Of a stretch of 64,000 nucleotides of DNA, positions 16,813 through 53,049 are shown piece by piece. Source of the DNA: Cornus controversa (taxonomy: Eukaryota > Streptophyta > Magnoliopsida > Cornales > Cornaceae); NCBI GenBank assembly GCA_026545225.1, contig CM048845.1, positions 31,866,001 to 31,930,000 of the forward strand, written 5' to 3'. The position numbers and the translations under genes are program-made. Under the pieces are notes generated by a model. The model had not been told where the DNA came from. It did not search any database and worked only from the letters and a program-made list of their open reading frames with translations. How positions within the stretch are numbered: the first letter of the stretch is position 1; every line of letters starts with the position of its first letter.

Positions 16813-16909
16813 ACCACCCTTAAATCTTGAAAAACTTAAAACATTTATTGCTAGTTTTTTTGTTACCATCCATTAAACATACATTCACCCACTACAAGAT
16901 TTTTGGGTT

Positions 16910-17160
16910 TTAATGACAGGGCTTTTACGACGGGCCCGCATAGCCTATCGTAAAAAGTACATTTTACGACGGGCCCGTGTAGCCCGTCATAGAAAGGTTA
17001 TTTTTTAAGGCGGTCATCCATAGCCTGTCATAGAAAATACTTTCTACGACGGGCTATGTGTGCCCGCCTTAGAAAATAACCTTTCTATGACGGGCCATGC
17101 CCGCGTTGGAAAGTTTAATATCTATCACACGCTTGGCCCGTGATAGAAAGCTCTAATTTT
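16910..17160 (+). promoter_or_regulatory. Left subterminal repeats of the CACTA element
   Basis: Several copies of TTTTACGACGGGCCCG, TTTCTATGACGGGC and GGGCTATGTGTGCCCGCC-like motifs occur in both orientations. In En/Spm elements such subterminal motifs bind TnpA and direct transposition; that role is inferred here from position and composition. Confidence 0.8.
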
Positions 17161-19621
17161 TTCTTCACTTTGGGCGGTGCAATTTTTGATCTCCCGCGCA
17201 TAACCCAAATCCTCATCATGTCTAACGTTAACCCTCTGTAGATGAAAGCTCAAACTAACCTATGATCAGCACTGTTCTCTAATTTCTGACTCCCGCACAT
17301 AACTGAAAACCCCAAAATCTCTAACCCTCTCTAGATCAAAGCTCAATCAAACCCTAACCTCTAATCAACGTCGTTCTTCAGCTTAAACAAGCTTGATTGA
17401 GGCAAAGTCTGTAATAAAGAGCTCCTCTATGATCGAAGCTTATCCTAAAAGGTACTCCTTTAAAATCCCCTCTGATTTGGTACTCTTTGATTTGGTACTC
17501 CTTTTACGTCTTGGGTACATTGATTGGTAATTTAAATATAGATTTTTTGTGTTTCTGATTTGGAACTCTTTGATTTGGTACTCTTTTTAGGTCTTTGGTA
17601 CATAGATTGGTAATTTAAATATAGATTTTCTGTGTTTCTCTTTTTTGGTCTGTAATAAAAATTAAACTCACTACATGGATTTGATGGGCCTTTTTTGTTG
17701 TCATTGAAAAGTATTTATTCATTGGTTACAAATTGAAGCTTTTAGTTCAATAAATTCCCTTCCATGTTATAATTTAGATTTGATACAGTTCAGACTTCTT
17801 TATGCTCCCATAGTAGTTGTTTTTATGCATTCATGTCTTCGGATGAATCTTGTTCATTGATGATGTAGTTTTAGTTAGTGAAACTAGGTTAGCAGTATGT
17901 TCTAGGAGAGATCCACTGATAGATGGTTTGAAATCTTCAACAACAGAAAAAATAAATAAATAAATAAAGAATAAGCAAGAAAACAACACTACAATTGTTG
18001 AGTATGATACTTGTCACTATGCACCTAAGTTTATCCATGTAGTATTTTGCTTTTAACTGCATCAAGACATTACGTTTAATTATCAAATAAAATAGTTATG
18101 GTTGCTTGGCTGGACTGGCAAAATGAAATTTCCAGTCTCAGTTTAGAGAACATGCATTTGTTAAATATATACAAGGACTATTTGCATCATAAAGAATTTC
18201 CATTTATTCTTGTATGAGTATAAACAAACCCTATTTGTACAAAGAAGTGATCTGGAACGGTTTAATATAATAGTAGAATAAATACAAATTCTAAGAATGA
18301 TCTGCAGATAGATGCTTAAAATCTTTGGAAACTAAAAAGAAATTGAAAAGGAACAAGCAGGAAATAGAGGTTAGAACTATTGAGTTGATTGTGTTCATTA
18401 GTATTAGTAATGTATAATTATCATCTTGAAGTTCTTCTGTTCTAACTACTTACTGCAAGGAGGAAAAAAAAAGTTCTTCTAACTTCATCAGGCCACTACA
18501 TGTGTTTTTCTTTTTAATAATGCAGGTAAGCAAAATATAACCTTTATATTGGGGTTGAATTTAGGGTGTTAGTAGACGTTGGGGCCACCACTTTCCCTTG
18601 GATAAAAACAATGATAAAACCTGCATCAAAATAAATTCATAAAAGATGACCAAAAAATTTATTTAAGAGCCCTGCTATGAAACTAGATAGCTGAAGAGAA
18701 CGTAATAACTCTTCATTTGGTAAAGCAATTAATAATAATGCCTCAACTTCCATCAACGAATTGACCTTTGTTAGGACTTAATGTCGTAGGTTGGCAAATT
18801 TCGTAACAAAAGCCAAAGTTTGTACTTTTTGTTTTATTTCGAGTCATTTAGATAGAGTTGTTTATATCTTAATTGAAATGACTACTCAAAATTTCAATCA
18901 AAATTTGTAGCCTTCAGTGCATTCAACTTGTTATACCTTTGGTTCTCATTCTGCAATTATTTTTATTATTTTTTCAATTGAGTTCCTGAATTAATCCGTG
19001 GCTTGTTTGCAGTTCTGCATTGGTACCATAAAATTAGATTCATTGTTTTCCACGTTCATCTAGAGGATATAAAGAGATTATTGGGTTAAGGTTAGATATT
19101 GTCTTCATTTAGTTGTTGTGTATCTCTTTATCTCTCTCTATACACAAAGATCTAATAGTTCTATATTTTTGTTTTGTTTTGTTATTTTTAAAACATGTTT
19201 GCTTCTTCTTTTTGATATCTAAAATACTCTGACGAAAAAAAAAATTCCCTTTTCCCCCCAAATAAGTTGGGGCTTCTGAATATAATTTCCATTTTATGAA
19301 TCTAGTTCCATTTTCTTGAATATGATTCCCATCTTCTTTCTCAATATCTGATGTCTTAGTTTATGGCTGATTTTATTATGGTGTGTTGTGAGCAAATGAT
19401 TTTGTGATTGATAAGTCTAGGTTATTGATGGGGATGGGGTAATATAGCAGCCCGGGAATTGATATGATGATGGGGTTTATAAGATGGTTATTCTATTGAA
19501 AATCTTTTGTGATCAAAATTCTGGACCAATCAGCCATACTTTTCCCAAGACCAAAGTTTGGTATTTTAAAATGGGTGATTCTCTTCTAACGGCCCTGTCA
19601 ATGGACAAATTTTGTCTGTCC

Positions 19622-19668
<47 letters not shown>

Positions 19669-19684
19669 CGTGTGTGTGTGTGTA
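19622..19684 (+). repeat. (TA)n(TG)n microsatellite
   Basis: A TATATA run passes into about 25 TG dinucleotides with a few GC interruptions. It is simple-sequence DNA inside the CACTA element. Confidence 0.95.
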
Positions 19685-19926
19685 TCTCATCATAGTTAAT
19701 CATTTTTACCTAATTATAATTTGATAGTTGCAGTAAATAGTTTCCATGTTGTTCTTTTTGTTGTTAAATTTTACTTTTTAGAAGATAAATGATCTTTTTA
19801 CATATAAAGTTTGGTATTGTGCTAATATAATTCTATTATTTTGGTAATGGGGAACTTTTGATATTCTTGTTGCACTTTAGAAGCTTTGTCAATTGGTAAA
19901 ATAATCAATCTGGTTGACTTCTGCAG

Positions 19927-19984
19927 GTTGTTTGTCAGCAACCACCCTGGTGAACTTGGGTGTTAGTTGGCTAGGAAAGGGCAG
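19927..19984 (+). other. Candidate non-coding leader exon of the CACTA transcript
   Basis: A 58-bp segment is bounded by TTCTGCAG on the left and GGCAG|GTAATA on the right, good acceptor and donor sequences. It contains GTCAGCAACCACCCTGGTGA. There is no useful reading frame, so a 5' leader exon of the downstream transposase gene is the simplest reading. This is inference. Confidence 0.35.
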
Positions 19985-20248
19985 GTAATACTTTTTAACC
20001 AATGAATTTTTTTCCCTTCATCTGTATGTAAGCATGCTAGCATCATATGGAACTCTATACTGATGAGTTCTCAGTTTCCTTTCATGTGCAATGTTAAGAG
20101 GAGATGCCTTATAGAAATGTTGAGAAGTGTAGATGAAAAGTACTTAGCCGCCATGGAGATGCTGTGTTTTCATAAAAAAAAGTGGTCTATGGTGGAGGAT
20201 ATAATATATATGCTTAAAAGAAAATTCAAATCTTCAAAAGAATAAAAC

Positions 20249-20279
<31 letters not shown>

Positions 20280-20748
20280 TGCTTAATTAGGTTGATGTCT
20301 TTTCATGGAATTGTCATTCAATGCTATGTGTTCAATGAAAGTTTAATTTGGTAGATCCTGTGCATTAGCAAGCCCATTATGTTGAGAATTTTGTCACTTT
20401 CGGATGTGATTTTCCAATTTCCTCTTCTTGATTGGATCAAATTCTCTACTCTAGTCATAGGCTTCCAACATGTTTGGGACGAAAAAAAGGTTAATGGTTT
20501 ACATATACTTAGGCTGCCAAGTACAAGTAATTGTGGCACTTAAATGATTTCTTGATAACATATTTTGTGCTAGATTTGTATCTGCAATTGTTCAACCAGT
20601 TCTTGTTGATCTGGTACTTTATTCTAATAAAGTTAATTTTTCCCTGTAAAAAGTTAAATGAAAGGAAAGGAAAGAAAATTCATATCCTAGTCATTGCTAC
20701 TATAGTTCTTAATTACATAATAGTGCCTCTGGAATGAATGCTTGGAGC

Positions 20749-20751
<3 letters not shown>

Positions 20752-20804
<53 letters not shown>
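20752..20804 (+). repeat. (AT)n microsatellite
   Basis: Uninterrupted alternating TA for about 50 bp within the CACTA element. Confidence 0.95.
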
Positions 20805-20807
<3 letters not shown>

Positions 20808-22599
20808 CTAAATTGATATTTTGTGCTTTTATTGGAAGAAGATTCAATTAAGCCGCTAGATTGTGCTAAATTACTAATGCTTATTCCAACTTTCTTGTGG
20901 CATGTGGAAAGATTTAGAATTGGGTGATCAATTTGCCTGCAATGGTGTTGGTTGTTGTTGGGTATATTTCTTAAGCATAAAGTCAAATTAAGTAACCTCA
21001 ATATCCATCCCCTAGAAGTGTGATCTTTTATCATACTTGTTGACTAATTACAACTATTTAGGGCTCTTAAATTAGTTTTACTTCACCATAAATTGGTAAA
21101 ACTTACCTTACCTTGCTCTTGCAAATATTGATTTCTTGAGCATATAATTCTATTTTACTATTTTCAGTTTCTGATATCATCCATATCACTTCAAATCTTC
21201 CTCTCTGATTTCATCCATATGATTCTATTATACACAATCATTCTGTGTTTGAAAAATATGGTTGAGACATGATTTTGTTTGATATATGTATTATGTGTGT
21301 GCTGTGTCAACCAAGAAAGTGAAAAAAGAAAAGAAAAAGAAAGAGAGAGATTGGGCATCCGATTAGGAGGAGAGTGAATCAGTAGAAGAAGATAGAGAAG
21401 AGAGGTAAAAGAGAGAAAAGGGGGAAGAGAAAAAGAAGGGAAAAATAATATACATATATCTATTCATATATATATTGATGCTGAATGAGAAAAGGAAAAA
21501 GGTGGGGAATAAAATAATAGAATTGGTGGAGAAAATAGAGAGTGGTCAGTTAAAGAATGAGAAGATTAGCAGAGAGAGAATAAAAGAAAAATAAAGAGAG
21601 AAAAGAAAGAAATAAGAGAAGATGAGAATGAGTGGGTAGAGAATAAGAAAAGAAAAAGAAATGGTGGGAGTGTGAAGGAAGAGACGAAGAATATGGGTTT
21701 GGTCAGCTAACACATTGAAGAGATTAAATGCAAATGAGGTTGCTGACATTGATACCATTGCTATGCATTTTTATATGCAAAAGCCATTTCAATGATTTAA
21801 TAGCATTTGGCTATAAAAGAATTCAAACAGAGGCACAAGAGGATTCATAGAGACATCTAGATGCATATTGAGAGATAGAGGGAGCTACTGGAATTCAGTA
21901 GCTCCGGCACAAAAATGTATTCAGAAGGAGAGAAGCTAAGGAGGGAAGGGAGGTTTCAACCACTCCTATAGGAAGCTAACTTCACTCCTAGTGGCTTGAT
22001 GTAACCCTAAGCTATGTAATTTTGTTTTGATTGTATTTATTTTGGGGAAAATTCTTTATGTATAATAATTGTATAATATGTGATAAATGCCGAATATTGC
22101 ACATTCAAGCCTCTTAAGTTGCAAATGTTAATTCCTGAATTATGTGCATAGTATAGTTTTTACATTTATTTTTGTGTTTCTGTTGTTTTTAAGAGTTTCC
22201 CCATAAATTTAGTCAATTCGTGTTATTTAGCATTTCAATAATGCCTTCCAGCATTGCTAACACCAAAGAAAGATGGGTCATGGAGGATGTGCGTAGAGAG
22301 TCGTGCCATTAACACAATTACTAGAACCATAGGGAAAAAAGGAACAAATAATAATATTACACGAGGGAACGAATTCAAACACTTGCACAACATTAAATGA
22401 ATGCTAGAACCATCAAGAAAAACATGGGTTGGTGCAAGTGTATCTATGTGGTACGTTGAGAGATAGAGAGAGACGGAATCCTTAAATAAATAGACTAACA
22501 CGAAGTTCACTTAACAAACTATTAACAAGTTTTATGTATATTTTGCATTGAATCAATTATGCAAGGATGTTGATGTAACCATCCCTTAAGTTCTCAAAA

Positions 22600-23834: not shown

Positions 23835-24915
23835 ATTTCTTATATTATAATAATAACTTGGCTATTTTGTTCAGGGTAAGTGGTTTTTTTTACTGGATTA
23901 ATTGAATCCCCTATTTTTACTTTTTTATTAGAAAAACTGGTGGTAATTCGCCTAGAAGAACATAACAAAAGAACCCACTGTCATGAAGGTTGTCTGCATC
24001 TATTATGAATGGTCCATGGGAGCTGCACTTAGTAGGAGCTTAGAACATGCTAGTGTAATTTTGTTTGTAACCTTTATGGGATTAAAAAAAAATTAATTTT
24101 TTTTCTTTTTATGTATGTTATTATAATCACAGAGTGATTTTTCTTGGGGGGCAGCATAGCCCTATGAAATTGGGTCTATTAGCATGGAATGCCCTATCAA
24201 GATTGTGTTAAATTCCTGTCTTCATTCAAAGCATGAAATTGAAGTGCGTGCTCTAAAGTTGCTAACACAATAGGAGGAAATATTATAGGTTAATTAAGTA
24301 TTTATCAATAGATAGAAATATCTTTCAGCATGGAGCTATTACTATTAGCAGTCCAGGTCAATTGTCATATCTCTTAAGGTTGGGGGGTTAGCGGCGGCCT
24401 ATACAGTACCAGGAGGTTTAGATCAAGTAACAGTTTTCCAATTCTTGTTAACCAACATTGATACTGATGGTTTATATATATATAGAACTAGGCTTGTGTC
24501 AAAATGAAAACCTGATCATTGATACTCGCTCTTCTTTTCTCTTCCTTGTACTGTTGAAGCCATGAAGGAAAGCTTGAGCTGGTCGAAGTGGTGGTGGATT
24601 CATGGTTATGAGTAGTGGTTGGTATGGTTAGAGCTTCTCTCCTAAAATTAGCCGAGCAAGCAAGTCAGCTGCTGCTCAACTCCAGTTTTAAGAAGTGACC
24701 AACTAGATCCATCACTGGAAAGAGTAAAAGAAAAAAGATTAATGTAAAACCAAAATTCAAAAATTAGGAATAAAATTTCTTAACCTAGCTACATATCTAC
24801 TTTTAGTAATACACATAAAAAAATTAATAATTTTAGAGACAAACATTCAAAAAGAAAATGGAGATATAAGAAATCCAAATATGAAACTTATAGATAATTA
24901 AGTTCATAAAAATAC

Positions 24916-25570
24916 CTTTCAAGGTTGAGACTTAGTCCCAAGCTGCCAACAGGAACTGTAAGAGCATGAAGTTGCCAAAGAGACTCTAGAGAAGGTTGGC
25001 CTGTTTTACACCTCATGTAAGTCTGAAGAATTGCAATCCCCACTGTCCACAACCTTCCACTCTCTCCAATTGCACTCAACATTCTACTAAGTTCCATAAT
25101 CATGAGTTCCACAAGACAGTAGTAGTTTTTCCTTTGCTCACCACAATGACAGTGTTTTTCCTTTTAGTGCTCATGAATGTGTTTAAAACACTATTTACAT
25201 CATCACTCAAAACTTGATTATTGGTACTTGGTTTGCTTAGTTATGATCTAAACTGAGTCATTGGTGGAAAATGAGAGAAATTGGTGCCAAAACTTGGTGA
25301 TTTGGTGCTAATTTTCTTGGACTGGCTATTCACAGGACTTTCAGAACAGATCTCCAAAGAGACAGCTTGTTCTACATTGGTTTTCACTTGAGGACTAGAA
25401 AAACCAGCCTCTCTCATGACTCTACATCCACTTGGTTCATCTAAGATTGAGATTATGAGCTGCTCTATCTCTACTTTCAAAGCCAAAATGGGCTGCTGCT
25501 GGTTTTCAATGGAGCCACGCCGTTGGTGAGCTTGCGCACGCTTGAAGGCAGCAACCAAGGCATTGGAGAG
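24916..25570 (-). pseudogene. SMXL-like: Captured SMXL-type (SMAX1-like, double Clp-N) gene fragment
   Basis: Intact relatives are nuclear, ClpB-like proteins that repress strigolactone or karrikin responses or act in vascular development. The minus strand reads [20 protein letters not shown], then [16 protein letters not shown] and [20 protein letters not shown], which is the Clp-N region. After a stop (just below 25243) it continues with SKPSTNNQVLSDDVNSVLNT and, after a frameshift, ELSRMLSAIGESGRLWTVGI and LQTYMRCKTGQPSLESLW. It ends at a donor-like LNLE|GTATTT at 24916. The middle of the ATPase-like region is missing. Stop and shift show it is non-functional cargo of the CACTA. I favour the SMXL4/5-to-8 side of the family, but only from memory of the motifs. 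Confidence 0.8.
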
Positions 25571-25754
25571 AGAGAAGGGATTGACAAGAACAGTGCAAAT
25601 TTATAATATATTTTCACATGAAATATTCCTATTTTCCTTGCCCCCAAAAAAAATTCTTATTCAATCTTGGAACAAATATACTAGCTTTAGAATCCAAAAA
25701 TACACAAAGCAGCAAGCAATTACACTAATAACGATAACCAAACAGAAAAATTAC

Positions 25755-25902
25755 CCTAAATGAAGGTTGGTAGTCAGCTGGAGCTCCTCCCTAGCTTCTC
25801 ACCAAACTCACCAGGGAGTCCTCTAGGACCTCCACAGTATCCAATATCCTTCATGATCACCAAACCTTGGCCTATCTCCTTCAAATCTAGGTGGACCACT
25901 GC
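25755..25902 (-). pseudogene. RPS10-like: Captured 40S ribosomal protein eS10 C-terminal fragment
   Basis: eS10 is a protein of the small cytosolic ribosomal subunit. The minus strand encodes, in successive frames, GPPRFEGDRPRFGDHEGY, then GGPRG-PGEFG-like sequence and GAPADYQPSFRG, the Gly/Arg-rich plant eS10 tail. Small indels shift the frame between these blocks and create stops. The segment ends at a donor-like TTTAGG|GTAATT. It lies 0.2 kb from the SMXL fragment on the same strand, although the two genes are unrelated, so both are best explained as cargo acquired by the CACTA element. Confidence 0.7.
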
Positions 25903-27486
25903 CAATTTCACACATCAAAAATAAATAAATAAATCTCAATTAATAGAAAATTAAAACGAGCAGTAGGATAACCACTAAAAAAAAATGACAAACCACTAAA
26001 ATGAAATAAACAAATGACATATCAATTAAGGGAACCAGATTCAATTAATGCCCAGTAAACTAAACAACAAATGTCAACAAAAAGTATAACTGGTAGAATA
26101 TAAAAGAAGACCAAGTTCGTATCGCATTTGGCACTCAGATTTGAAGGGCTCGGACGGATGCTAGAGATAAATGAATACATAGGAAATTAGGAATCATTGC
26201 TCATGCAAAAGAAATATTATTTATGCTCCTTACTTTGACATTTTCAGCAACACAAAGAGGAAGAAAAACAAGTATACCTGTGTGAGTTCCATTACAGCAT
26301 TGCATTGACAGATATTATCAGAAGCGACATGGAACTCTATTATTAGTTTTTTGTTATTGTCGTCTAGCTGAGCATCTATGCAACAGTTTGTGTTTTGTTC
26401 TCAAGTATTTTTTTTGGCTTGCTGGGAAGAAAAAAAAAAAAGGAGAGTGGGGATGGAATAAGCCTCATTTTCATGTCCTTTTTTGTATACTTTCAGCTTC
26501 TTTCACCAGTTGTTTTGTCTGATATCTATAATTTGTGTTTAAATAATGCAGTTAGTGGTCAGTTTGCTTAACATTCTTTGTACAAATGTTGCATGGCAAA
26601 GGCGTAAACTTGGAAAAATTTTACAAGATTGGCGTGTCATCTATGTGCAGGTTTGCCCTATTATATCCAACTTCATGAAAATTGTTTAATTAATATTTTG
26701 TTTCTTCAAATTTCATGACCTCATTATTGATTTGTCTCCTTTTGAGATCCACCTATGATGTTTTATCATGTTATCAACTTATTGCCCCGCAATTCATGCT
26801 TCTCCTGCTCTTTTGGCATCATTTACCTTATTATTTAGAGTATAAATAAATCAATCAGAGTCTGACTGGTTATATAATTCATTTCTTGGCAAGAAAATAT
26901 TAAAATCTAGTCTTATCAGGGATTTAAATTGTTTTTAGATATCCTTAACCAATTAAGAAAGTTGAAATGTTTTGGTGCTGTGCGACAAAGCATTTAACGA
27001 TAAGAATTTTTTAATGCACATCTCTTGCCCTCATTTTCCCCTTATTTTAGGCTTATCTGTTAGATAGGAGTTCAAATTTATTTTTCTGGGTTGTTACTGT
27101 TTTTTGAAATTCATCATGCATGTTCTTCCTCAGTTTTTCCTCTCATTAGATTCAATTTGGGTATTTGTTCTCAAAAAGGTCACTTGTGGAGAAGTTCTTT
27201 GACCTCTGTAATGCTTCTTACAGAACCTATCAAGATCTAGGAATGCATTAATTTCAGCAGCTTCTTGACACCATATCTTCCAATCATGGACTGAGCTCCA
27301 ACATGTAATATCCTACACCAATCCACTCTCTATAGTAGTCAGCCACTCAGCCACCAATTCTCCCCTAGGAAAAGCTACTTCTAGAGACTCATCCCTGCCC
27401 TAAATTTCATGAGTTTTAATCAAATATCTGTAAATGACTCAAAAAATAGTGCATCAACAAATGTAAATATATGTAGTTATATTTTT

Positions 27487-28938
27487 GGGTAAATTACCCG
27501 AACCTCCCCTGAGGTTTTGCCTTATTACCCGCAACTGAAACTTTTTGAGAAATCTCTCTGACACAGAGCTTACCCCGTTAGTACCTTTAACGGCAGCTGT
27601 GAAAGTACCATTTTCCCCTTAATTGTAAATATACAAAAGTACTTACTTCACTGCGGATGTAATAAAAAATACAAAATTACCTTTTTACACTTATAACTCT
27701 AGAAAGTCCAGATTAACCCCTCTATACATATACAAACCAATCTCTCTCTCTCGATCTCTCTCTCTCCCACACACTCACATATATTTATTTATGCACAAAC
27801 ACATACTAACTTCCGTCGCTCTTCTCATTATCTACAATGGGTTTGAGATTAGGTTATGGTTCATCTCATTTCTTCCATTCACGGCCAAACAATTTACATA
27901 TACATGGTGCACATGAAGCACAAACAGAAACCCTTATACTGCACCACCCACCGTGACTCGTACAGAGCACAACTCCACCTCCGACTCCATCCTCTACAGC
28001 TAAGCCACTGCCTACCATGGCTTAACTGCCTTCCTTGGTTCTGACCAAGCCATGTCCATCCCCACTGGCCTTTTGAGCTCTCTCACGACCGCTGCCGCCT
28101 AACGCCCCCACCCCCACCACCAATGCTCTCTTTCCTCTTCACCATCGTGACACCACTGCTGCCGCCGCCACCCCAAAGTCTCTCTTCTCTCTCTCCTCTC
28201 TCTCTCTCACACACACACACATATATGTATACTCTGTAAAACATACATACATACATATATATATAATGTGTATTAATGTATTAGATCTACAAGGAATTGT
28301 ATTGTATATATATAATGTGTATTGTATTACATCTACAAGTAATTGTATTGTATATATATAATGTGTATTGTATTAGATCTATAAGGAATTGTATTGTATT
28401 TATATAATGTGTATTGTAGTGTATAATCTGAGGGATTTGCAGAGGGGTGATGGTGGTGCTCGAATGGTGGAGGCAGGTTGAGAGAGAGAGAAATAGGGTG
28501 GTGGTAATTTGATTGGACAATGAGGGGCAGTTGTGTTGGGAAAGAAATGAGAGGGAGAGGGAAGGGAGGGAAAGAGGTGGCGGTGGCGGTGGTGGTGGGG
28601 GCTATTGAAGGTTTGCGCATATATATACGTATGTGTGTGTTGCATACGTATGAAGAAATTTATATTTAATTTTGTAATTTATGAACTAATTTTGCAAATT
28701 TTACGCTTTAGATAGGTTCATCAAAGTTCAGGGTCATTTAAGTCTTTTTACTTTAGTTAAGGATAGTTTTGGCATTTTCTAAATATCTCACTGACAGACT
28801 TAACAGTCAACTAACACCAGGCGTAGTTGGAGTGATTATGCCAAACTTCAAGGGAGGTTAACTTGACCACACTTTTTCAAATAGTTTCAGCCACAGATAA
28901 TAAGGCAAAACCTCAAGGGAGGTCCAGGTAATTTATCC
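27487..28938. mobile_element. Mutator-like non-autonomous element (1452 bp)
   Basis: Long terminal inverted repeats: the left end starts GGGTAAATTACC and the right end is its inverted relative GGTAATTTATCC. CCTGAGGTTTTGCCTTATTA is on the left and TAATAAGGCAAAACCTCAAG on the right. The 9-bp target duplication is TATATTTTT versus TATATTTTG. The interior has no transposase. It holds (CT)n tracts, a CCACC-rich segment, and three ~50-bp units with ATCTACAAGGAATTGTATTG near 28277-28418. It lies inside the intron of the NAA35 fragment. Confidence 0.8.
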
Positions 28939-30095: not shown

Positions 30096-31147
30096 CTAGA
30101 ACTGGCTTTTAGGAAGGAGTTTAGAGAAATCTCAAGCACTTTGAATGATGAGGTATGTTTTCCTTCCCTCATTATATCACTATTGCATTTTACCTATATC
30201 ACAGAAGACCTATCAACCTATCCTTTGCATGAAAAGATCACTGTTACGGTGAAATTAACTTTTTCAATCTTTTTAATAACTTCCTGTGATATTCGTGTGA
30301 CTCCCAAATTATGTTCTCAATTGGAACTTTAGTTTAATGCCAAAGAGGCGGGATACTAGTGGTGCTTATTATTTTATTTCAATTTCTTATATGCGCTTAT
30401 ATTTCCCCTAATTTGGACTGTGGGGACTTGAATCCAGTGATCTGCTTTCTCAAATATCGTTGGCATAGCTTTTCATTAGGAATGTTTCTTCAGTCACCTT
30501 ACTCATTTTACCATTAAGTCTTATAGTTTGTCGTCTCAAATATCCTTAGAAACCTTTTGATCAGTAGTGCTCCTTAATTTAGAAGTTTAGGTTTCAAGTA
30601 ATTGATTATATATGCTACATGGCAGGATTGGAAGTTAATAGAGAAAATTACATATTTTTGGCTTTTTCTTTGCTTCTTCCTATTTTTCCTTCTTTCGGCA
30701 AAAAAAAGAAAAGAAAAAAAGAAGAAAGAAGAAAAAAGAAAAATAAAAGAATTTGTTTATTTATTTGCTGATAGAATATTGACAACTTTATGTTGTTCAC
30801 AGCATACAAATAACTGAACCAATTAGACAGTAAAAGCTAAAATTTATAAAGGGAATATTTGCCAATTAAACCACTTGCGCTTTTTTACTGCTGAGTGACT
30901 CTCCCATTGAGTTTGTCGATTTTCAGAAAGGGTTTCCTTTTTCTATTTCTTGTCAGAATTTTTTCTCCATGTTCATCAAGCCACGACCGATATATTTTTA
31001 TCGAGCATCGTACCATTGATATCCTGATTTTCAGTTGAATATTTCTACGCCCTACATTTTGTGATTTGTTTCACGATGAACCTTGTTTAGGTTTATTGGT
31101 CACTTCTACTAGTAGTTGCCAATTGTTGAATAAATTAGCAAGGAGAC

Positions 31148-34100
31148 ATGGATAAAGGCTGGATGCACCTTCATAACAGGTTATTATAACCTAAATAACC
31201 TTACCCATAACAATTTAGACATTATACCTGTCATTCTTGTCATAATGAAAATTTTGACTTTCCAATTGTAGAGCTTCAATGGAGTATTTAAATGGAGCAC
31301 GTAGATTTTCCAATTGGGCCCAACGTAATGCAGGGAATCCAGCTAAGATTATATGCCCCTGTAAACATTGTTTAAACTCACAATATCAACATTTTGATAC
31401 GGTGTACGAGCACTTAGTGATCAATGGAATGGATTCTGCTTATACTGTATGGGCCTTTCATGGAGAGAATCGGATTACATATGTAGAAAATGAAGGCACT
31501 GAAGATGGTGTGGAAATGCCTGAAACGTATGAGATGTTTAGAGATGTGTATTTTGATGGTGAAGAAAATGCTACAACAGCTCCCACTTATGGAAGTAGAG
31601 AGTTTGAGTTCAGAGAGGCGTTGGAAAAGGCTGAAACTCCTCTATATCCTAATTGCACGAAGTATACAATTATGTCAGCAACAGTTGCTTTATATAAGCA
31701 CAAAGCTGCTCATAATATATCGGATACTGGATTTGATGAGCTTCTTAAGATTATTCGTGATATGCTTCCGACAGATAATAACCTTCCGGAGGGGATTAAT
31801 GCAACAAAGAAGTTATTGAAGATATTTGAGTTGGGGTATGAAAAAATACATGCGTGTATCAATGATTGTTGTCTTTTTAGAAAAGAAAATGAGAATCTGA
31901 TTGCATGCCCAAAATGTGGTGCTTCACGGTGGAAAGTGAATGAACATAGTAAAAAAATTCGAAATGGGATTCCGGCTAAGGTGTTACGGTACTTTCCAAT
32001 AATACCAAGATTTAGGCGATTATTTCGATCAAATGAAAAGGCTGAACAAGTATTATGGCATTCGACTCATAAAAGTCGGGATAAAAAAATGCGGCATCCA
32101 GTTGATTCATGTGCATGGGAATTGATTGATAAAAAGTGGCCGAGTTTTGCATCAGATCCTCGAAATTTGAGGCTTGGCCTTGCAACTGATGGGTTCAATC
32201 CATTCGGTGACCTTAGCTCTAAACATAGTTGTTGGCCTGTGATTTTAGTAGTATATAATTTTGACCCGTTGCTTTGTATGTCTAAAGAGAATATGATGTT
32301 GACGTTGTTAATCTCAGGACCAAAGCAACCAGGAAATGACATTGATGTGTATTTGGAGCCACTACTGGAAGATTTAAAAGTATTATGGGAAAAAGGTGTT
32401 GAGCTTTATGATTCATTCACTAAATCTTTGTTTACTTTGAGGGTGGTTTTGATGTGGACAATCAATGATCTTCCGGCCTATTCTAATTTGTCTGGCCAGG
32501 CAACAAAAGGTAAGTTTGGTTGTCCAGTGTGTGTTAAAGACACATATTCTGAATGGTTGAAATCTAGTGGAAAGACTGTGTTCAGGGGTAGTCGGCGATT
32601 TCTTCCATTCAATCACCCATACAGAAAGAAGAAAACTTGGTTTGATGGAAAAGAAGAAATGAAGGGGCCACCTAGAGTATTAGCTGGTTCAGAAATTTTT
32701 TGCGGCATTAAGGATTTTCAAAATACATGGGGAAAAAGTAAAAATCAGGAAAAAAGTAAAAAGCGCAAGAAGGAAGAGAAACCTAGCATTTGGCCATGGA
32801 AGAAAAAGTCTATATTTTTTGAGTTACCATATTGGGAGGTACACAATTTGAATTCACCTTTATCTTCGGTGGTTGTTGTCTTTTTTTTATTTGAGGAGTT
32901 CACACTCCTTACTAATAATTCGTTTTGCTTGTTATGTTAGGCGTTACCTCTCCGACACAATTTGGATGTGATGCACATTGAAAAAAATGTTTGTGAGAGT
33001 ATTTTTGGCACACTTTTGAATATAAAGGGAAAATCAAAGGATGGACTAAAGTCTCGTATGGATTTGAAGCAAATGGGCATTAGGGGAGATTTGCACCCAA
33101 AGGAGTTAGGGAAAAAAAATTACTTGCCACCAGCACCATATACATTATCGAAGAAAGAGAAGCAATCATTTTGTAAAAGGTTACAACAGCTGAAGTTACC
33201 TGATGGTTATAGTTCAAATATTGGGCAACGTGTATCATTGGATGAGTGCAAAATTAGTGGCCTAAAATCTCATGATTGTCATGTTCTTATGCAACAATTG
33301 CTGCCTGTAGCTTTACGCGGGACACTGCCAAAAGGTCCGAGGATTGCTATATTTCGCCTATGTGCGTATTTTCATGAAATATGTCAAAGGGTGATTGATA
33401 GGAATCAATTGGAAAAAATTGAAAATGAAATTGTCGAAACTTTATGTATGTTTGAAAGATTCTTCCCACCGTCTTTCTTCGACATTATGGTACACGTTAC
33501 CATTCATATTGCACGAGAAGCTCGTTTATGTGGACCAGTACAATTTCGTTGGATGTACCCATTTGAGAGGTAATTTATTTATAACATTCTTTTATATATG
33601 TTATGCAATTACAAATATTATTTAATTTCCATATATATAATTATATCGTTATATTTAGGATGATGAAAGTTTATAAAGGATATGTTAAAAATCGAGCAAG
33701 ACCTGAGGGGTGCATAGCAGAAAAGTACTTGGTAGAAGAGTGCATTCAATTTTGTAGTGAGCACATGAAACAAGTCGCTGAAATTGGTGTTCGTCGTTCT
33801 TGAAATGAAGATATTCAAACTGAAACAATAGAAGGAGGACGCCCACTTTCTAAGGGAATTTCAAAAACCATGTCTAGTGACATGTTAGCCATTGCTCACC
33901 GTTATGTATTATTCAACAATGAGGAGGTGGAACCATATTTAAAGTAAGATGGTATGAAATTTTTTTAATTTATAACTATTATTGAAAAACAAAATACTTA
34001 ACCATGTTATTTTCTTATTAGAAAGCATGTGGAGGAACTCAAGGGTTTGGACAGTTGTCTTGCAAGGAATGAAAGCACTCTACAAAAGAAACACATGGAG

Positions 34101-34733
34101 ACCTTCAGTTCATGGTTCAAAACCATGATTAATGCAAGTAGTAATGTGTCAACGATGCTACAGGGGCTTTCAAATGGGCCTAGGAACGATGTAATTTCTT
34201 ATTCTGGTTATATTGTGAATGGCCATCGATTTCACACTAAGGATGTCGAGAGAAGCACACAAAATAGTGGTGTTTCCATTGAAGCTGAAACTATATGTCG
34301 ATCTAGTGCAAGAGACACAAATCAAGTTGTTGAAAAAATATCTTACTATGGTGTTCTGAAAGATATAATTTTGTTAGACTACTACTCATTTCAAGTACCG
34401 TTGTTTCATTGTGACTGGGCAAATATTAGAAACGGCATCAAAGTTGAAGATGGATTTACATTGGTGAACCTTCATGAAGGTCAAAGTCAATTTGAAAGTG
34501 ATCCATTTATCCTTGCGTCACAGGCTAAGCAAGTGTTTTATTCTAGGGATACTGAAACGTCAAGTTGGTATGTGGTACTTAAAGTACCACCAAGAGGCAA
34601 AATTGACTTGGACACTTTTGAAGAGAATGCTTATATGCCTTATGCTCCATTAGATATATCAAGACTTGAATGTGAAATTCTTGATGATGGCGAACATCAT
34701 GTACGACTTGATTGTGAGGGCATAACATTGTAG
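31148..34733 (+). CDS. TnpD-like CACTA transposase, five exons, one in-frame stop
   Basis: Proposed exons are 31148-31179, 31272-32838, 32941-33569, 33659-33943 and 34022-34733. All have GT-AG borders and consistent phase, giving 1074 codons. Exon 1 gives MDKGWMHLHN and joins to ASMEYLNGARRFSNWAQ, the transposase-associated domain with the CPCKHC motif. The central transposase_21 region holds LGLATDGFNPFGDL (D317, candidate catalytic Asp) and MWTINDLPAYSNLSG (D410). A DUF4218-type segment (GPRIAIFRLCAYFHEICQRV ... WMYPFER) spans exons 3-4, and a DUF4216-type segment (YYGVLKDIILLDYYS) lies in exon 5. The only lesion is TGA at 33801-33803, codon 791, which would remove about the last 284 residues. 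The reading frame continues cleanly after it. The protein would cut the element at its ends. It lies just upstream of the TnpA-like gene, as in related CACTA elements. Confidence 0.9.
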
Positions 34734-34981
34734 AATATTTTCAAAGGGGTATTTGGTTACTTGGTTATATTTTTTGGTTTGTAATTGGTTACTTGTAGCA
34801 TATTTTTTGATGAAACTGAATGGTTGTGATTATGTATCTATCTAAATTTGCATTAAATTCCTTCTTAAACTGGTAATATGTTATTTCTGGTGCTCTTTTT
34901 CTAAATCAATAGTGGCGCCTCCAATATAAACTGAATTATTACTCCTTTGATAAGATTACAGGTCATCTAACGATTTGTACT

Positions 34982-37268
34982 ATGTCTGAACATCCTGAAG
35001 TAAGTAGCAATCTTACTTAATGTTGTTTTATCTTAAATTGATTGTTTTGATTTAAGTATCAACTTTAAACATGTTTATTTTTAATGTTCTTCTTCTTTTA
35101 ATGCATGTACTGGAATGAAGTCATCTAGACAGTGTGAGACACGTGCAGAACGAAATCGTCGAGCAGCTATGGCTGCAATGATACGTACACCATCAGTTGT
35201 ACGCATTTCTGGCGGGGGTTCAAATTCTCCAAGGACACCTTCAGGCGATCAATTTAGAGTTGGTGGGGTTTCACCCGATCCAGTTACTTCTCAAGGACCT
35301 TCCATTGAGGCTACATCAAATACAAAGAAAAGAAAGGGTAGGGGAAAGTCTCAACTGTACAAGATAGCATCCACACCAAATGAGCGCCTAGTTGTGGATT
35401 TTAATGAAAGGGGGCAGCCAGTTGGTGATAATAGTAAGAAGTATAGTTCTTGCCTTGGGGTACTAGCACGTGAGAGGGTTCCCATAACAATTAAGAGCTG
35501 GAAGGATGTGCCTGAGTCTCTATTACAAGAATTATGGGATATTATAAAGGTATTTTATTTTTACTAATTTGCTAGTAGAATGATGTGTCTGATTCTCTAT
35601 TAGAAGAATAAAAACATGTTCTCCCTATGATATTTGGATATTTATTTGATAATTTGATATATATTTGCAGCTAAGATTCGATGTTGCCGACTGTCATGCA
35701 AGCGTATCATTTGGATTGATGGGAAAGGCGTGGCGCAATCACAAATCAAATACAACAAATAATGTGTTGTCCATGAGAAATAATCGACGAGCCATTGCCT
35801 TAATGAAGCCCGATAATATAAATTCAGTGGATGAGTGGCAAGAATTTGTTGCCAATCGATTATCGGAGGAGCATGCTGTGAGTATTTATATGCACTTTTT
35901 AATTATATATATATATAGATATATATTTTCATGACCTATATAAATTAGCAACTTTTTTGTATTTACAGAAAGAAAGAAAACAAAAACAAGAATTGAGGAG
36001 CAAAATAACTACCCCACACACAACAAGCCGATTAGGCTATGCTCGATTAGAAGATTCAATGGTAATAATGAATGTTTATTTTCTTCACTTATTTAATGCT
36101 AACCATAGTTCTTGTGATTTAGTAGCACAAATAATTGAAACGTGCATGTTTGGGTATGTAGCGAAAAGAGTCTGACACGCCCGATAACATTTCAAGCGTG
36201 GATGTGTGGATTAAAGCGCATTTGAGAAAGGATGGTCAGCCCATAAATGAACAAGTCAAGGAGACTGTGGTAACATGTTTAGGTTTTATAATTTAAGTTA
36301 ATCATTTATATTTATTATATTAAGTTACTAATGCGTGTGTTTAAAATATGAAATTTTAGGAAATAATTAAGACATATTCCCAAACGACTCAAAGTTCAGG
36401 AATTCATGACGATGCCATCAATCACGTATTTGGTTCAGAACATCGAGGAAGAGTGAGAGGGCTTGGGTTTGGGGTAACACTTACAAAATTGAAAACCCAA
36501 GCACAACAACAAGAAAATTCCCAAAGATATGAAAAGAAATTTGAAGCAATGATGCGGGACCAAAGGGAGCAAATGTTGGAAGCAATGCGACTTGAAAGGG
36601 AGAAAATGAGGGAAGAGATGAGGGAGGAAATGAGAGAGCAAATGAGGGAAGAGATGAGGGACCAAATGAGGGAAGAGATGAGGGAACAAATGCAAGAGTT
36701 TAGATCATTGTTGGTAAGTGAAAATAAGAATGCGTTGTCATCATTTATATTAAAAATGCTTTGTCATAATTATTTTTCTTTTTTTTCATGCCAGACACAG
36801 AATGCTAATAACCAATCTTGTCCAAATGCTTCACCACGTGTCCCATCTACTGAAAATGCACCACGTGTCCCATCTACTGAAAATGTTGAAAGAAAAGATT
36901 GCGAGTTATTCCATTACAATGGGACAGGATTACTTGTTGCTACTGGTGAAGTTGTCTCCTCAGATCCTTCTACGCTCATAGGTGATGCACCACTCGGTTC
37001 TGATTGTTGGAAAGTGTGGGTCGATTTTGTCTTTGAATCCGAAGCTCCCTTGTATAGGGCAGATTCCTCCGGCCGTTATTTGCTTGGGCAAGCTCATGGA
37101 AATTCAATTGCATGGCCTAGCAAGTTTATCAAGATCAGTAAGTATTCCAAAGTATAATATTTGAATATCTAATTCCATTGATACTGAAAATATAATATAT
37201 AATATTTGAATATCTAATTCCATTGACACTAAAAATATAACATTTATTTATTTGCAGCTCAGCCTTAG
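34982..37268 (+). CDS. TnpA-like CACTA protein (plant Ptta/En/Spm transposase family), eight exons
   Basis: Exons are 34982-34999, 35121-35549, 35671-35877, 35969-36061, 36162-36269, 36360-36713, 36795-37137 and 37258-37268. All have GT-AG borders and an unbroken frame of 520 residues. It begins MSEHPESSRQCETRAERNRR and ends KFIKITQP. A basic, Ser/Gly/Pro-rich N-terminal region precedes the conserved core (KSWKDVPESLLQELWDIIK, then FDVADCHASVSFGLMGKAWR), as in transposase_24 proteins. A long coiled coil follows, with repeated REEMREQM/REEMRDQM heptad-like units encoded at 36580-36700. The C-terminal part carries a duplicated PRVPSTEN. By analogy with En/Spm TnpA it should bind the subterminal repeats and multimerise. 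No lesion was seen, so it may be functional. Confidence 0.9.
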
Positions 37269-38930: not shown

Positions 38931-39880
38931 GTTGAGTTTGTGCTTAATACTATTGAGCATTAGATTTAATTAATGTCTCTTTGTGTTTATTTGTAGAATA
39001 AAAATGACTGAAAATTAGATGGGTGTATTTTCAATGCTAATTTGGTTTTCTTATCTGTGACTGAAAGAAAGAACATTTGTTGTTTCTGGAGATTTTAATA
39101 CTGAATGTTCTATTGCAGAAACAAAAGATTGACAAAACTTGAGGGTTATCATTTTCTCAAACTTTAGGGGAAGTGTCAGGTGATGATGATACATTGGTAT
39201 ATTCAAACTTATATTTTTTTTTCATGCTGACTTCAGACAACCATTTTGAATTGTCAATGGTGTGTCTTTCTTATTTTATTTTTTAATTCAAAACTTTATC
39301 CACCTTGGCATAATGACACTCGCTTCAGGGACATCATGGACGCGTTGGCAAAAATTGGAGAGTTTGTTAAAGCTACCCAGTTTATTGGCCAAAGTTCAGG
39401 TTTGTATTACTGTTCTTTTGCTGTTTGGTATTTTTTATATTCCAAAATATTTAAATTCCTTTATTTTTTCCTCTTCCATTTCCTTTGACATATGTTATTT
39501 GTATATTTGGAACTGTCAGTTCTGGTAATGATTGGAAAGTAAATTTTTTCTATATAACTCAACTTAATGAAATTTTTTTTTCTATATAACTCAACTTAAT
39601 GAAGCTTCTTTCCTGCAAACCATATCAGCTATGTGAGCACATCTTTTTTCATGTTTTATACATAGGGCCAAAGGCAACCCTATCTTTTCTTACAGCTTCA
39701 ATCTATGTTCTTTTTCTCCCCTAATCTATGTAGCACATTTGACATGTAAATATATCAACCTGCAATTACAATGATAACACATGGAACATTTATATTCACC
39801 AGCCTAGCTAAATTAAGCTTGAGTTTGTTTGCAAATAGCAGTAACAAGACCTGAGTACAAAAAAGAAATATGGAGCAAAC
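38931..39880. other. Non-coding CACTA sequence, possible unknown exon
   Basis: A plus-strand stretch near 39290-39401 reads LYPPWHNDTRFRDIMDAL and AKIGEFVKATQFIGQSS and ends at a donor-like TTCAG|GTTTGT. It may be a captured exon, but I do not recognise it. A 26-bp direct repeat (CTATATAACTCAACTTAATGA core) lies near 39550-39603. Confidence 0.3.
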
Positions 39881-41766
39881 CTCGGCAAAATTAGGAAATT
39901 TGAATGGCTTTGAACTAGTATCACGACTGCCGCCCCTTGAATTAACACTTCCACTAACAGCCACAACATCTTTGGCTGACGAAGAGAAGTTCCGAAAGGG
40001 AAATGCATGACATGTCTCTTCGGCGTCCAATATAGATGAGTGTAATTCATGTGATGTTGGCTTTAAAACTTGAGGATATGAATTCATTTGGCCCGCAATA
40101 AATGCATCAAAAGAATCAGAGATCAATAGAGTTAGCTGCAACCCCGATCTGCTCCCATCTAATTTTGGTTCACAAGTATTGATCTTGCCCTGCAATGATG
40201 CTTCAGATAGCAGACCTCCATTGCTTAAGGTAGTTAGACTATCATCCCATGGCAGTAGTGATTGTATAGGGCCCTTATCCGTAGTTGGATGCAAATCTGA
40301 TTTGCTCCCATTTGACTCCGGATCGCAATTATTGATTTTCCCCTGCAAAGATGCTTCAGACAACAGGCCACCAATGCTCAAGTTAGTCAGACTGTCATCC
40401 CATGGAACTGTTGATTGTGCGAGGCTATCCTCAATCTTCACTTCATCATCCTAGTAAGAACAAAATTAACACATTCAAGAAAAACTAAAACATGTATTGG
40501 AAATATAATGCAACTGAGCCTTTCCATTGGTTCTCCAGCGCAATAACTGAACATACACAAGCTCAAAAGATTGAGCAAGCAAAGCTGACAACAATTGCCG
40601 AATTCTTGAAAGTTGATACCTAAACTAAAAACTTCATTGAAGAACTTTTCTAAAACTTTTCACAGTATAAATGAAATGGATAAAAAACAAAAGCAGTCAA
40701 GTATTATCCACTCCATTCTAGTACTTCATCGTTCAGTATCTTTACTTGAACCTATTAGATTCTGAATCTAGATCTACAATAGAAGTAATGTGCACCATAA
40801 ATATAGTGCTTCTAAAAGTTTAAGCGCTCAAAAGTCAAAAGCCTTTTTAAATTATATCATAACAAATAAACATATGGGGAGAAGAAAGTCAAAAATTACC
40901 ATACAGTCTGCTGCCACATCCAAAGGAACTGCATCTGCTGCTTTGCTTATACATATTGGTTTAACCTCTTCACTTGTTACCTCAAGTTTATTCTTTCTGT
41001 CATGCATAATCTTCGAAATTGTACTGCAACTTCTTTGGATTCCTTTAGATTCTAAACAAGTGTCCAAGTTGGCATAGATGCAGAAGGGACCGCAAAGGTT
41101 TCAGGCTCAACATTAGAGACCCAGCCATACCTTGAAAAAGAGATCAAGTTAGAAGTTAGGCTAAAACTACTAAATGCCAAAGGCAAAGAATCAACTCACA
41201 AACCTTAAGCGAAAAATGACGGGACTTTCTATAGCTGCATACACATCTCCTGCACTAATGCCACTGTCATTCAAAGTCCATCTTCTGCAACTAGCTAACT
41301 TCTCCAACTGTACATAGTATGGGAAAAGCACAGGGTTCCCTTGAGCTACACTTGAACTGCCCCATTTGTTATTGAGGTGCTTAAGCATAGAGGATATCTT
41401 TTTCCGAGCACTTAAAGTGAGTTCCAAAAATGGATTATAACCATCCTATAAGAAAGGAAAATATTATTTTTGTAAACTGATAATTACAGACCTAATCATT
41501 TAAGAATTCTGTTTTGCTAAATAATTTCAGTTCATAATCTCACTTCTCCAATCCTAAACGAGTGCATTCATCTATTGGGAAAAGCTGCAGCTTAATCTTT
41601 AGAGAAGGATGTAGTTGTCCAGCCTTAAGCTCTAGGGCAGGTACAATTTTAGTTGTTTCCCCAATAGAAGTAACTCTATTTGGAAGCAGCTTACCACCCA
41701 ACACTTGAGCAGCACTAAAAGGTAATTTACCTGGATCTTCTCCAGTCAAAACATATCCACAACCCC
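39881..41766 (-). pseudogene. TKI1-like: Captured TKI1-like (TSL-kinase-interacting protein 1) gene fragment, four exons
   Basis: TKI1 is a plant nuclear protein reported to interact with the Tousled kinase. Minus-strand exons: 41766-41544 (GCGYVLTGEDPGKLPFSAA ... IKLQLFPIDECTRLGLE), 41445-41204 (DGYNPFLELTLSARKKISSM ... WTLNDSGISAGDVYAAI), 41130-40900 (YGWVSNVEPETF ... CISKAADAVPLDVAADCM, with an internal frameshift and stop) and 40450-39881. The last exon has two copies of the block PWDDSLT-LS-GGLLSEASLQGKI and ends at SSKPFKFPNFAE|GTTTGC. Introns are retained, so the source was genomic DNA. The upstream Myb/SANT part and the gene's ends are missing. The family name is from memory of conserved motifs. 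Confidence 0.7.
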
Positions 41767-41837
41767 CTAGAAATAGAAGGTTCTCAACAATGAGTAGAAC
41801 AAACAAGTTAATTATAAAAAACAGATGGAAATTCTTA

Positions 41838-42250
41838 GGGGTGCACAAAAAATGTTAGAACCGGACCAAACCAAATCGTACGGTTTGGTACGATTCCGGT
41901 TTGAGGTCGAGAAGGACTGAACCAAACCATTAATTAGTGATAATATAAATATATGTACATCATATAATATACATGTTATTGGTAGAGAATATAACTTGCC
42001 ATAATCTTATGTGTATATATATCATCTTATGTGTATATATATTTCAGATTTGGTTTTTCATTTGATTAATATGTATATCTATATATGCATATATATATAA
42101 GAAAGTCCAAAACCATTGAACCAATCATCTACGGTTCGGTTCCACTGATTCTAACAATTCGGTTTGATTCTAATATATCTTGAACTGCTGGGACCGGTTT
42201 GGTTCTGTTTTACATCAGAACCAGACCGAACCAAACCCAAGACGCATCCA
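41838..42250. mobile_element. MITE-like element with GGTTTGGTT-rich inverted ends
   Basis: GAACCGGACCAAACCAAATC at the left and AGAACCAGACCGAACCAAAC at the right are parallel versions of a sequence rich in CCGAACC/GGTTCGG, with inverted matches across about 400 bp. It resembles a plant hAT-type MITE (GGGGTGCAC start). The ends and target duplication were not resolved. Confidence 0.45.
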
Positions 42251-42277
42251 AAAAGTTGCACTGACACGCTAGATCAA

Positions 42278-42314
<37 letters not shown>

Positions 42315-42511
42315 TATACATATAGGAATGAGATAAAGTTTCTAAGGATAATGGGAAGTTAGACTCTATCTTTAACAAAAAGTATGACATGGATATGTTT
42401 ATGTACCTATATATTATATATGATTTGAGGCACCAAAATAAATACGTATGGTATTCTAATCATAAATCTATTCAAAAACTATGAATGGATGGAAATCCAT
42501 AAAGTTGTTAC

Positions 42512-42674
42512 CGTGTGTGACAAGCATCAAGTTTTTTGAAGGAAATTTATCTGCAAGGGCCTTAATAATTTGCTCATATCTGGTCCTTGCACCAACGACT
42601 GTCTCTTCCCATTTTGGCAACTTGAGTTCCTCGAGCAAACAATCTATGTCAGTACATAGAATAGTTTTTGCAGA
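42512..42674 (-). pseudogene. Captured exon of a phosphoglycerate-mutase-like (histidine phosphatase) gene
   Basis: One open minus-strand exon between acceptor TTATAAG and donor CACACG|GTAAC reads CTDIDCLLEELKLPKWEETV, then GARTRYEQIIKALADKFP and KNLMLVTH. The LVTHG ending and the RYEQIIKALADK helix match plant phosphoglycerate-mutase-family proteins of unknown substrate. The catalytic His-rich RHG motif is not present. It precedes the TKI1-like exons on the same strand, so a chimeric transcript is possible. Confidence 0.6.
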
Positions 42675-43220
42675 CTTATAAAGGAAAGTGAAAAGGAATA
42701 TATATCAAGTATACCTCTTTATATATATATTCATTGTTTCATTTCATTATATATTGATATTTTTGTCCTTTCTCTGTTGTACTTGCTCCATTGACCCTCT
42801 CTCTTTAAATCCCAGGATAATGAATCAGAGCAGCAGTAGCAGTAGCCTTCTCTCCTGTTGTACTTGCTCCATTTTGCTTCGATTGCCTCTCAACTACGTC
42901 TTCAAGTTCAGTGTTTTGCTTAAGTTCATTTGTAGCTAGAATATTCGTCTTTTAAATGTTCACTTTATATTTGTTAATGGTTGTAATTTTTAAGCATGCT
43001 GAATGTGCTAGCTTTGAATCTGCAAATTAGATATGCACATACTTTTGGGTTGGGATGAAAGTTATTCAAACTGTGTTTTTGGCTCGACTTTCATTTGAAT
43101 GTTTTTTAGCTTCCGATACAAATTGATGTTGGTACTGTATGTATGGTATCACAGGTTTTTAGATTGGGTTTCACAGGTTTTTGGAATGAGAGGTATTAGA
43201 AAAAGGAATTTTAAAAAAAA
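42675..43220. other. Non-coding CACTA sequence, nothing recognised
   Basis: AT-rich sequence. The segment TCCTGTTGTACTTGCTCCATT near 42854 resembles TCTGTTGTACTTGCTCCATT near 42773, a short duplication. No gene was seen. Confidence 0.4.
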
Positions 43221-43880
43221 AAAAAAAAAATTTTATAAGGCGGACGATGGCTGCCCTTAATAGCGTTTTTTAAGGCGGGCAAAGCCCACCCTTAATAATA
43301 TCATGAGTGTAGCTTCTAAGGCGGACCAGAAACGCCGTTAATATCTAGATTCTAAGGCGGGCTAACACTGCCCTTAAAAAAATTTGGCTTAGCTTTTAAG
43401 GCGGCTAGACTCGGCCCTGACTATTAGATTTGAAGGCATGCATTGCACGTCGTAAATAAAGATTCTAAGGCAATAACTGACCGTCGTAAATAATGACATT
43501 TCTATGACATGCATGGTCCGCTTTGAATAATTTTGCTTCTACGGCGGTCTCTGAGCGCCGTAAATAATAACAGTTCTATGACATTTAGAGGCCGCCTTGA
43601 ATAATTAAACTTCTAGGGCGGGATCGGAGCGCCGTAAATAATGACAGTTCGATGACATGTATGGGCCGCCTTTAATAATTCAATTTCTAAGACACTAAAT
43701 AACCGCCTTGAAAAATTATTTTAAAGGCGTGTGTAGAATTATTAAAGGCAGTTCTCGAATGCCTTTAAAAAGTTTCCGCATGCCTTTAAAAAACTTCGTA
43801 ATTATAACACCTTAATAGAGGGCGGGCGGGTGGCCGCCTTAAAAAGTCATTGATGGCAGTTTTGGCCCGTCGTAAAAGAC
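43221..43880 (+). promoter_or_regulatory. Right subterminal repeats of the CACTA element
   Basis: About twenty units such as TTCTAAGGCGG, CTTCTACGGCGG, TCTATGACAT(G) and GCCGCCTTGAATAATT follow one another in both orientations. They mirror the left array, but with AAGGCGG dominating over GACGGGC. They are probably binding sites for the TnpA-like protein. Confidence 0.8.
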
Positions 43881-44740
43881 TAATTTTCTTGTAGTGACCA
43901 CCCTTAAATCTTGAAAATTTTGAAATATTTCTTGTTAGTTTTTTATCAACGCTGTTAATTCATATTTCACCACCCTTAAATTCACATTTCACCAGCCTTA
44001 AATCTTGAAAAACTTAAAATATTTTTTGTTAATTTTTTTGTCAACACTTTTAATCCAAGTTTCAATATCCTTAAACTTACAATCACCATCCTTAAATCCA
44101 CATTTCAACACCTTTAAATCTTGTTCCAAAACTCAAATGACTCTTTTTTAATAATATTTTTTACTCATATTGTGGTGAACATAGATTAAAAGAATTAGCA
44201 AAAATATTAACTTGAAAATTTTCAAATGTTTCAATATTTAAGAGTGTTGAATTCAAGGTTAAGTTTGTTGGAAAAAAATTAACTTGAAAATTTTTAGTAA
44301 AATTATTAGATTTGTGAAAATCCATATTAAATTTGTTGAATAATTTAATCTTAACTTAATATTATTTTTTATGAGTAAATATAATAATTAAAATTTAAAT
44401 ATTAATAAAAAAAGTCACAAGAGTTTTGGATCATAGATTAACTGTGTTGAAAAAAAAATGACTTGAAATAAATTAAGTTTTTCAAGATTTAACGGTGATG
44501 AAATGTGAATTTAAGGATGGTGATTATGGGTTTAAGGGTGATGAATGTATGTTTTATGACTAGTGACATAAAAACTAACAAAAAAAATATTTCAAGTTTT
44601 TCAAAATTTAAGGGTAGTGAAATGTGAATTTAAAGGTGATGAATATATGTTTTATGGGTGGTGAAATCTAAATTAAATTTTGTGAAAATATAGGACACGG
44701 GTAGGATAGAGGATCTCAGCTCTTTACAAATAATCTCCTT

Positions 44741-53018: not shown

Positions 53019-53049
<31 letters not shown>

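Follow-up and report, generated by a model that had tools for sequence, protein, structure and literature searches.

Capture of host genes by CACTA transposons is common, and the element described here adds to a known type. It lies in a 64-kb stretch of Cornus controversa DNA (contig CM048845.1, positions 31,866,001 to 31,930,000; hereafter the window, in whose numbering all coordinates are given). This 27-kb dogwood locus is very probably a single CACTA (En/Spm) element, once encoding both of its own proteins, that transduplicated pieces of five unrelated host genes and inserted into a repeat of the dogwood genome with a 3-bp target duplication.

In soybean, the 5.7-kb CACTA element Tgm-Express1 holds exonic and intronic fragments from five unrelated host genes, and exons of different parents are spliced together in its transcripts (PMC1947982). 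The dogwood element likewise has CACTA ends around pieces of five unrelated host genes. An initial annotation of the locus had called this cargo unusually varied, a description that has to be withdrawn, as Tgm-Express1 holds five unrelated fragments in a much shorter element (PMC1947982). The two differ in that Tgm-Express1 is described as composed of gene fragments, whereas the dogwood element is 27 kb long and has both transposon genes.

Other described elements share one or more of these properties. Soybean Tgmt* (20.5 kb) is also a large CACTA element, whose Tnp2 transposase is accompanied by a TNP1 (PF03017) domain; it was expressed, and captured host genes are not mentioned in the part of its description available here (PMC2613891). 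Grapevine Cactavine-5 (21-25 kb) is similarly very long and transposase-encoding, and the likeness extends to two of its copies, in which a host fragment lies downstream of the transposase gene in the opposite orientation; one fragment, of a pentatricopeptide repeat (PPR) gene, is named in the consulted part of that report, against five genes in the dogwood element (PMC2528002). The Tpn1 family of morning glory also captures host genic regions and forms chimeric transcripts, but its cargo carriers are described as non-autonomous, TpnA1 being the putative autonomous element (PMC5105172). In CACTA-like elements of Chenopodium the captured gene fragments lie 5' of the transposase domain, with one host gene in each example, whereas the dogwood element has cargo on both sides of its genes (PMC8978399). 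On wheat chromosome 3B, 145 genes were reported to take part in 140 capture events mediated by CACTA elements, some of these events through exon shuffling; this was a chromosome-scale survey, and the part of it compared here does not describe individual five-gene carriers (PMC4290129).

The element also falls across an existing class boundary. Like Pack-TYPE (Pack-CACTA) elements it holds host coding fragments, from five genes, between CACTA ends; unlike them it has a transposase match (Transposase_21, E 1.8e-88). The packFinder software assigns an element with a transposase match to the autonomous class, outside Pack-TYPE (PMC8903248), so the cargo of such elements may be under-counted. Comparable cargo in an element with both of its own genes is not described in those parts of the literature that were compared, which is not to claim that it is unpublished.

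Element ends, insertion site and transposon genes

The whole element (16890-43896, 27,007 bp) was delimited by its unique 10-bp inverted ends, the flanking ACC and a joined-flank test. The perfect 10-bp terminal repeat, CACTACAAGA, starts with CACTA and occurs in the window once in forward orientation, at the left end (16890-16899, plus strand), and once in reverse, at the right end (43887-43896, minus strand). ACC is found immediately outside either end (16887-16889 and 43897-43899), consistent with the 3-bp target duplication of the CACTA superfamily.

Subterminal repeat arrays, also characteristic of the superfamily, were present on both sides. The left array (16900-17170), recognised by motif counts and by the cross-end score, contains direct and inverted copies; the right array (43210-43886) consists of units of 34-37 bp and 74 bp. 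The motif G[AG]CGGGC, counted on both strands, occurs six times in the left 281 bp and four times in the right 687 bp, and neither in the 26-kb middle of the element nor in the remaining window. When the subterminal regions were aligned without the terminal ten bases, the left against the reverse-complemented right scored 44, whereas 300 shuffled pairs averaged 20.7 and reached at most 33. The shared subterminal sequence, together with the insertion site, shows that the left and right ends are of one family and most likely of one element.

For the joined-flank test the two 70-bp flanks were fused and aligned to other units of the repeat surrounding the element, and the alignment ran through the junction. 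The left flank preferred a join with one ACC (110, against 103 for two), with an alignment extending only about 10 bases beyond the junction. The right flank scored 117 with one ACC and 118 with two, and its reverse strand 111 and 116, respectively. As the preferences of the two flanks are opposed, a single insertion into the repeat is backed more firmly than is the length of the duplication.

The target sequence is repetitive in its own right, with ACCACCCTTAAATC units in either orientation (16085-16240 and 43897-44680), and is possibly an older inverted-repeat element. Within one and the same repeat, about 75 bp away from the CACTA element, is a tiny TRIM-like long terminal repeat (LTR) retrotransposon (16242-16812), whose two LTRs, each some 250 bp long, are 100% identical across the 252-bp repeat. 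Its interior of about 70 bp ends in the reverse complement of TGGTATCAGAGCC, which we take to be the initiator-tRNA primer site motif, and ACCAC stands at either side.

Between the ends are a Tnp2-type transposase gene and a TNPA/TNP1 gene, the combination typical of the superfamily, both on the plus strand. The TNPD-type transposase gene (31148-34733), defined by Pfam matches and an exon model, has 5 predicted exons and 1,074 codons before the final stop; in 64 such transposase genes the exon number ranges from one to six (PMC4158355). Pfam matches were obtained to Transposase_21 (E 1.8e-88), Transpos_assoc (8.7e-17), DUF4218 (8.2e-25) and DUF4216 (6.7e-16). The frame is interrupted by an in-frame TGA at 33801-33803 (codon 791, in predicted exon 4), ahead of the DUF4216 part. 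The second gene, of TNP1/TNPA type (34982-37268), is predicted to have 8 exons and 520 codons with no internal stop; its last intron is uncertain, and an alternative model extends to 37357. It matched Transposase_23 (PF03017, TNP1) at E 1.2e-5, with 25.4 bits against a cut-off of 21.

The termini, ACC duplication, subterminal arrays and two transposon genes placed at 16890-43896 by the initial annotation are therefore borne out by the unique 10-bp ends, the motif counts and the Pfam matches. Its description of the copy as autonomous-type or nearly autonomous is weakened: both genes are present and the second is uninterrupted as predicted, but the transposase frame is not intact. Because of the TGA codon, which the annotation had not recorded, the present copy is autonomous-type but probably defective.

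Host-gene fragments carried by the element

The cargo lies in two spacers, one before the transposase gene and one after the second gene, and consists of truncated fragments from five host genes: SMXL3-like, eS10, NAA35, TKI1 and phosphoglycerate-mutase-like (PGM-like). The NAA35 piece is on the plus strand and the other four are on the minus strand. Fragments of these five genes on both strands had been proposed from inspection, and each has now been matched to plant proteins.

Three protein searches were made. Of 7,999 candidates scored against a query composed of cargo pieces, 1,792 proteins matched at E up to 0.01; among the best 120 of the 1,792, the top match was Cornus florida TKI1 and the best SMXL match was a C. 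florida SMAX1-LIKE 3-like protein. The NAA35 query returned 209 proteins among 8,000 candidates, and among the best 120 of the 209 the top match was again from C. florida (91%) and every match carried PF25789, the domain of NAA35. For TKI1, SMXL3-like and NAA35, the best listed matches were thus from C. florida, 85-95% identical in the main blocks. The eS10/PGM-like query gave 68 matches of 186 candidates, all listed, with PF03501 (eS10) in 50, PF00300 (phosphatase) in 16 and neither in 2.

The SMXL3-like fragment (24512-25570, minus strand) covers residues 98-239, 324-398, about 400-417 and 421-469 of the reference protein P0040. By tblastn it was 90.2, 85.3 and 87.8% identical over 143, 75 and 49 columns; a further stretch of 24 residues was 70.8% identical. 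Residues 240-323 are deleted, and there are one stop, one 1-residue indel and two frame changes, one of these at the deletion. The deletion, stop and frame changes, like the TGA in the transposase gene, go beyond what the initial annotation reported. The piece matched SMAX1 in the PDB (E 5.3e-27); its Pfam match (E 0.0059) was below the curated cut-off. Next to it is a C-terminal exon fragment of eS10 (S10e; 25755-25898, minus strand) with splice-site-like edges and two frame changes, matching in three frames against the three proteins tried. Its PDB match was plant eS10 (E 1.3e-14).

The NAA35 piece consists of two exons on the plus strand, located by mapping the reference protein P0121 back by tblastn: 26549-26650 (residues 434-467; 88.6% identity over 35 residues; splice sites present) and 30096-30152 (residues 468-486; 95.0% over 20 residues). 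A PDB search with this piece gave nothing significant. The intron between them contains a nested terminal-inverted-repeat element (27486-28938) with 66-bp arms that are 83% complementary and an 8-bp duplication, TATATTTT. Either this element hit the CACTA element after uptake of NAA35, or it was present in the parent intron beforehand.

In the second spacer, the TKI1 fragment (39881-41767, minus strand) corresponds to residues 43-117, 118-199 and 221-411 of the reference protein P0001, with a short fourth exon between the last two; the N-terminal 42 and C-terminal 70 residues are missing. The three main blocks were 92.0, 87.8 and 86.9% identical over 75, 82 and 191 residues (tblastn). The fourth exon gave a 31-residue match at 61.3%, a low value because the match begins in the intron. 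Frame shifts were seen within the fourth exon and, given the splice sites that were tried, also at the first exon junction. The PGM-like exon fragment (42512-42674, minus strand) shared 79-84% identity over 38 residues with the four plant proteins to which it was compared; its only Pfam match, at E 0.022, was below the curated cut-off and a PDB search gave no match. Between the exons of PGM-like and TKI1 (41841-42250), inverted sequences of GGTTTGGTTC type look, by eye, like a small nested inverted-repeat element.

Acceptors or donors were found at the exon edges of TKI1, PGM-like, NAA35 and eS10. These preserved edges indicate that genomic DNA, and not processed RNA, was copied, in agreement with the retention of introns noted earlier. 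Ten other open stretches of the element were searched for further host genes: with E values up to 1 allowed, Pfam gave no match for eight of them, and the other two matched at only E 0.041 and 0.4. Other exon-like pieces that had been added to the NAA35 and eS10/PGM-like queries gave no match of their own among the best 120 of 209 and all 68 matches, respectively.

Origin and state of the cargo

Taken together, the joint ends, the insertion site, the five truncated pieces and their splice sites uphold the earlier proposal of transduplication by a transposase-encoding CACTA element. CACTA elements can acquire cargo by copying other templates during repair, and the pieces may have entered the two spacers in this way, from ectopic templates, during the repair of transposition breaks. 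They may alternatively have entered through aberrant excision of neighbouring copies, as has been proposed for Pack-CACTA capture (PMC13317346). With its transposase now interrupted, the present copy would need the proteins of an intact relative to move.

Several points weigh against the single-element explanation. That both ends belong to one unit is inferred from just two things, the site of insertion and the subterminal sequence common to the ends. The subterminal arrays aligned in the same orientation also score 36, above every shuffle, although this is expected of arrays that hold both direct and inverted copies. The joined-flank test does not fix the length of the duplication, since the left flank favours one ACC and the right slightly favours two. 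Breakpoints of the cargo were resolved to exon level only, the PGM-like match depends on one exon of 54 codons, and all 68 matches of the eS10/PGM-like search include no protein named as C. florida for either gene.

A more far-reaching proposal is that a CACTA element retaining both genes took up host genes through repeated moves, at two distinct loading zones. We regard this as doubtful. If true, multi-gene shuffling would be carried out by CACTA elements that move themselves as well as by their crippled derivatives; hybrid introns would let unrelated exons splice, as the PGM-like and TKI1 exons can still do in frame, and annotation schemes that set aside transposase-bearing elements would miss such carriers.

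It is unlikely that a Pack-MULE or Helitron gathered the cargo and later inserted into the CACTA element. Nested insertions do occur, that at 27486-28938 being an example, and multi-gene cargo is typical of Helitrons. However, no inverted or direct repeat framing either cargo block was found above the shuffled level, and a simple scan of both strands of the element found no Helitron-like 3' end (a hairpin with an arm of 7 or more followed by CTRRT). The two separate cargo blocks would, in addition, demand two events. A nested carrier was rejected on the missing framing ends.

It is very unlikely that a captured or fused gene in the element is functional, as a product of exon shuffling under selection. 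The three aligned TKI1 blocks (346 codons) contain no stop and no gap, and the PGM-like exon is predicted to splice in frame to the first exon of TKI1, so that about 128 codons can be read jointly. However, such an in-frame join is expected by chance in one phase of three, and for the splice sites tried the joint frame ends within the following exon; no reading among 24 exceeded 139 codons. The fourth TKI1 exon changes frame, and the SMXL3 and eS10 pieces are frame-broken.

Selection was examined in a rough test of three TKI1, four SMXL3 and two NAA35 blocks, omitting the fourth TKI1 exon, the 24-residue SMXL3 stretch, eS10 and PGM-like. The TKI1 and SMXL3 pieces (346 and 266 codons) were each 88.7% identical to the C. 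florida proteins, and their 39 and 30 differences, respectively, were no more conservative than in a neutral simulation. About 11% of neutral simulations of TKI1 had no stop. Selection on the TKI1 piece is therefore unsupported. In NAA35 the differences, only four in 53 codons, look conservative, a value reached by 2.3% of simulations, which speaks for function. Part of the divergence of the cargo may be between species, the references being C. florida proteins. Overall, the blocks tested gave no clear sign of selection, and the cargo is frame-broken. On the single-element explanation, the cargo most likely drifts neutrally.

That the fragments are exons of resident genes, with CACTA ends from unrelated elements, is highly improbable: they do retain splice-site edges and high identity, but the genes are truncated, the missing parts tested of TKI1, SMXL3-like and NAA35 reached no better than E 0.036 anywhere in the window, on which this explanation was rejected, the ends share subterminal sequence and flank a single repeat site, and the three best matches are on different C. 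florida contigs (140,400,670, 107,930,554 and 117,753,799 bases for TKI1, SMXL3-like and NAA35, respectively). As these contigs differ in size, the C. florida parents would be on different chromosomes if the contigs are from one assembly.

Surrounding sequence and significance

Elsewhere in the window, a disease-resistance-type gene with NB-ARC and winged-helix domains was seen at 6463-8254 in two overlapping frames, and a reverse transcriptase remnant at 55421-55798 on the minus strand (RVT_1, E 8.6e-9). Two similar repeat-rich stretches with 63-bp units (52828-53301 and 56276-56782), about 3.5 kb apart, are perhaps a local duplication.

Transcription of the locus, if it occurs, could allow exons from different parents to be joined by splicing across the hybrid introns that separate them. 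By the precedent of Tgm-Express1, chimeric transcripts and small RNAs from the cargo are plausible, as the initial annotation had suggested. Any effect on the parent genes would be by way of read-through transcripts or small RNAs.

The element leaves the understanding of capture unchanged. It provides a clean, physically complete example from Cornus of host-gene capture by a CACTA element still carrying its own genes. With an SMXL-family gene and NAA35, a subunit of the N-terminal acetyltransferase, among the parents, small-RNA effects on the parent genes would be testable.

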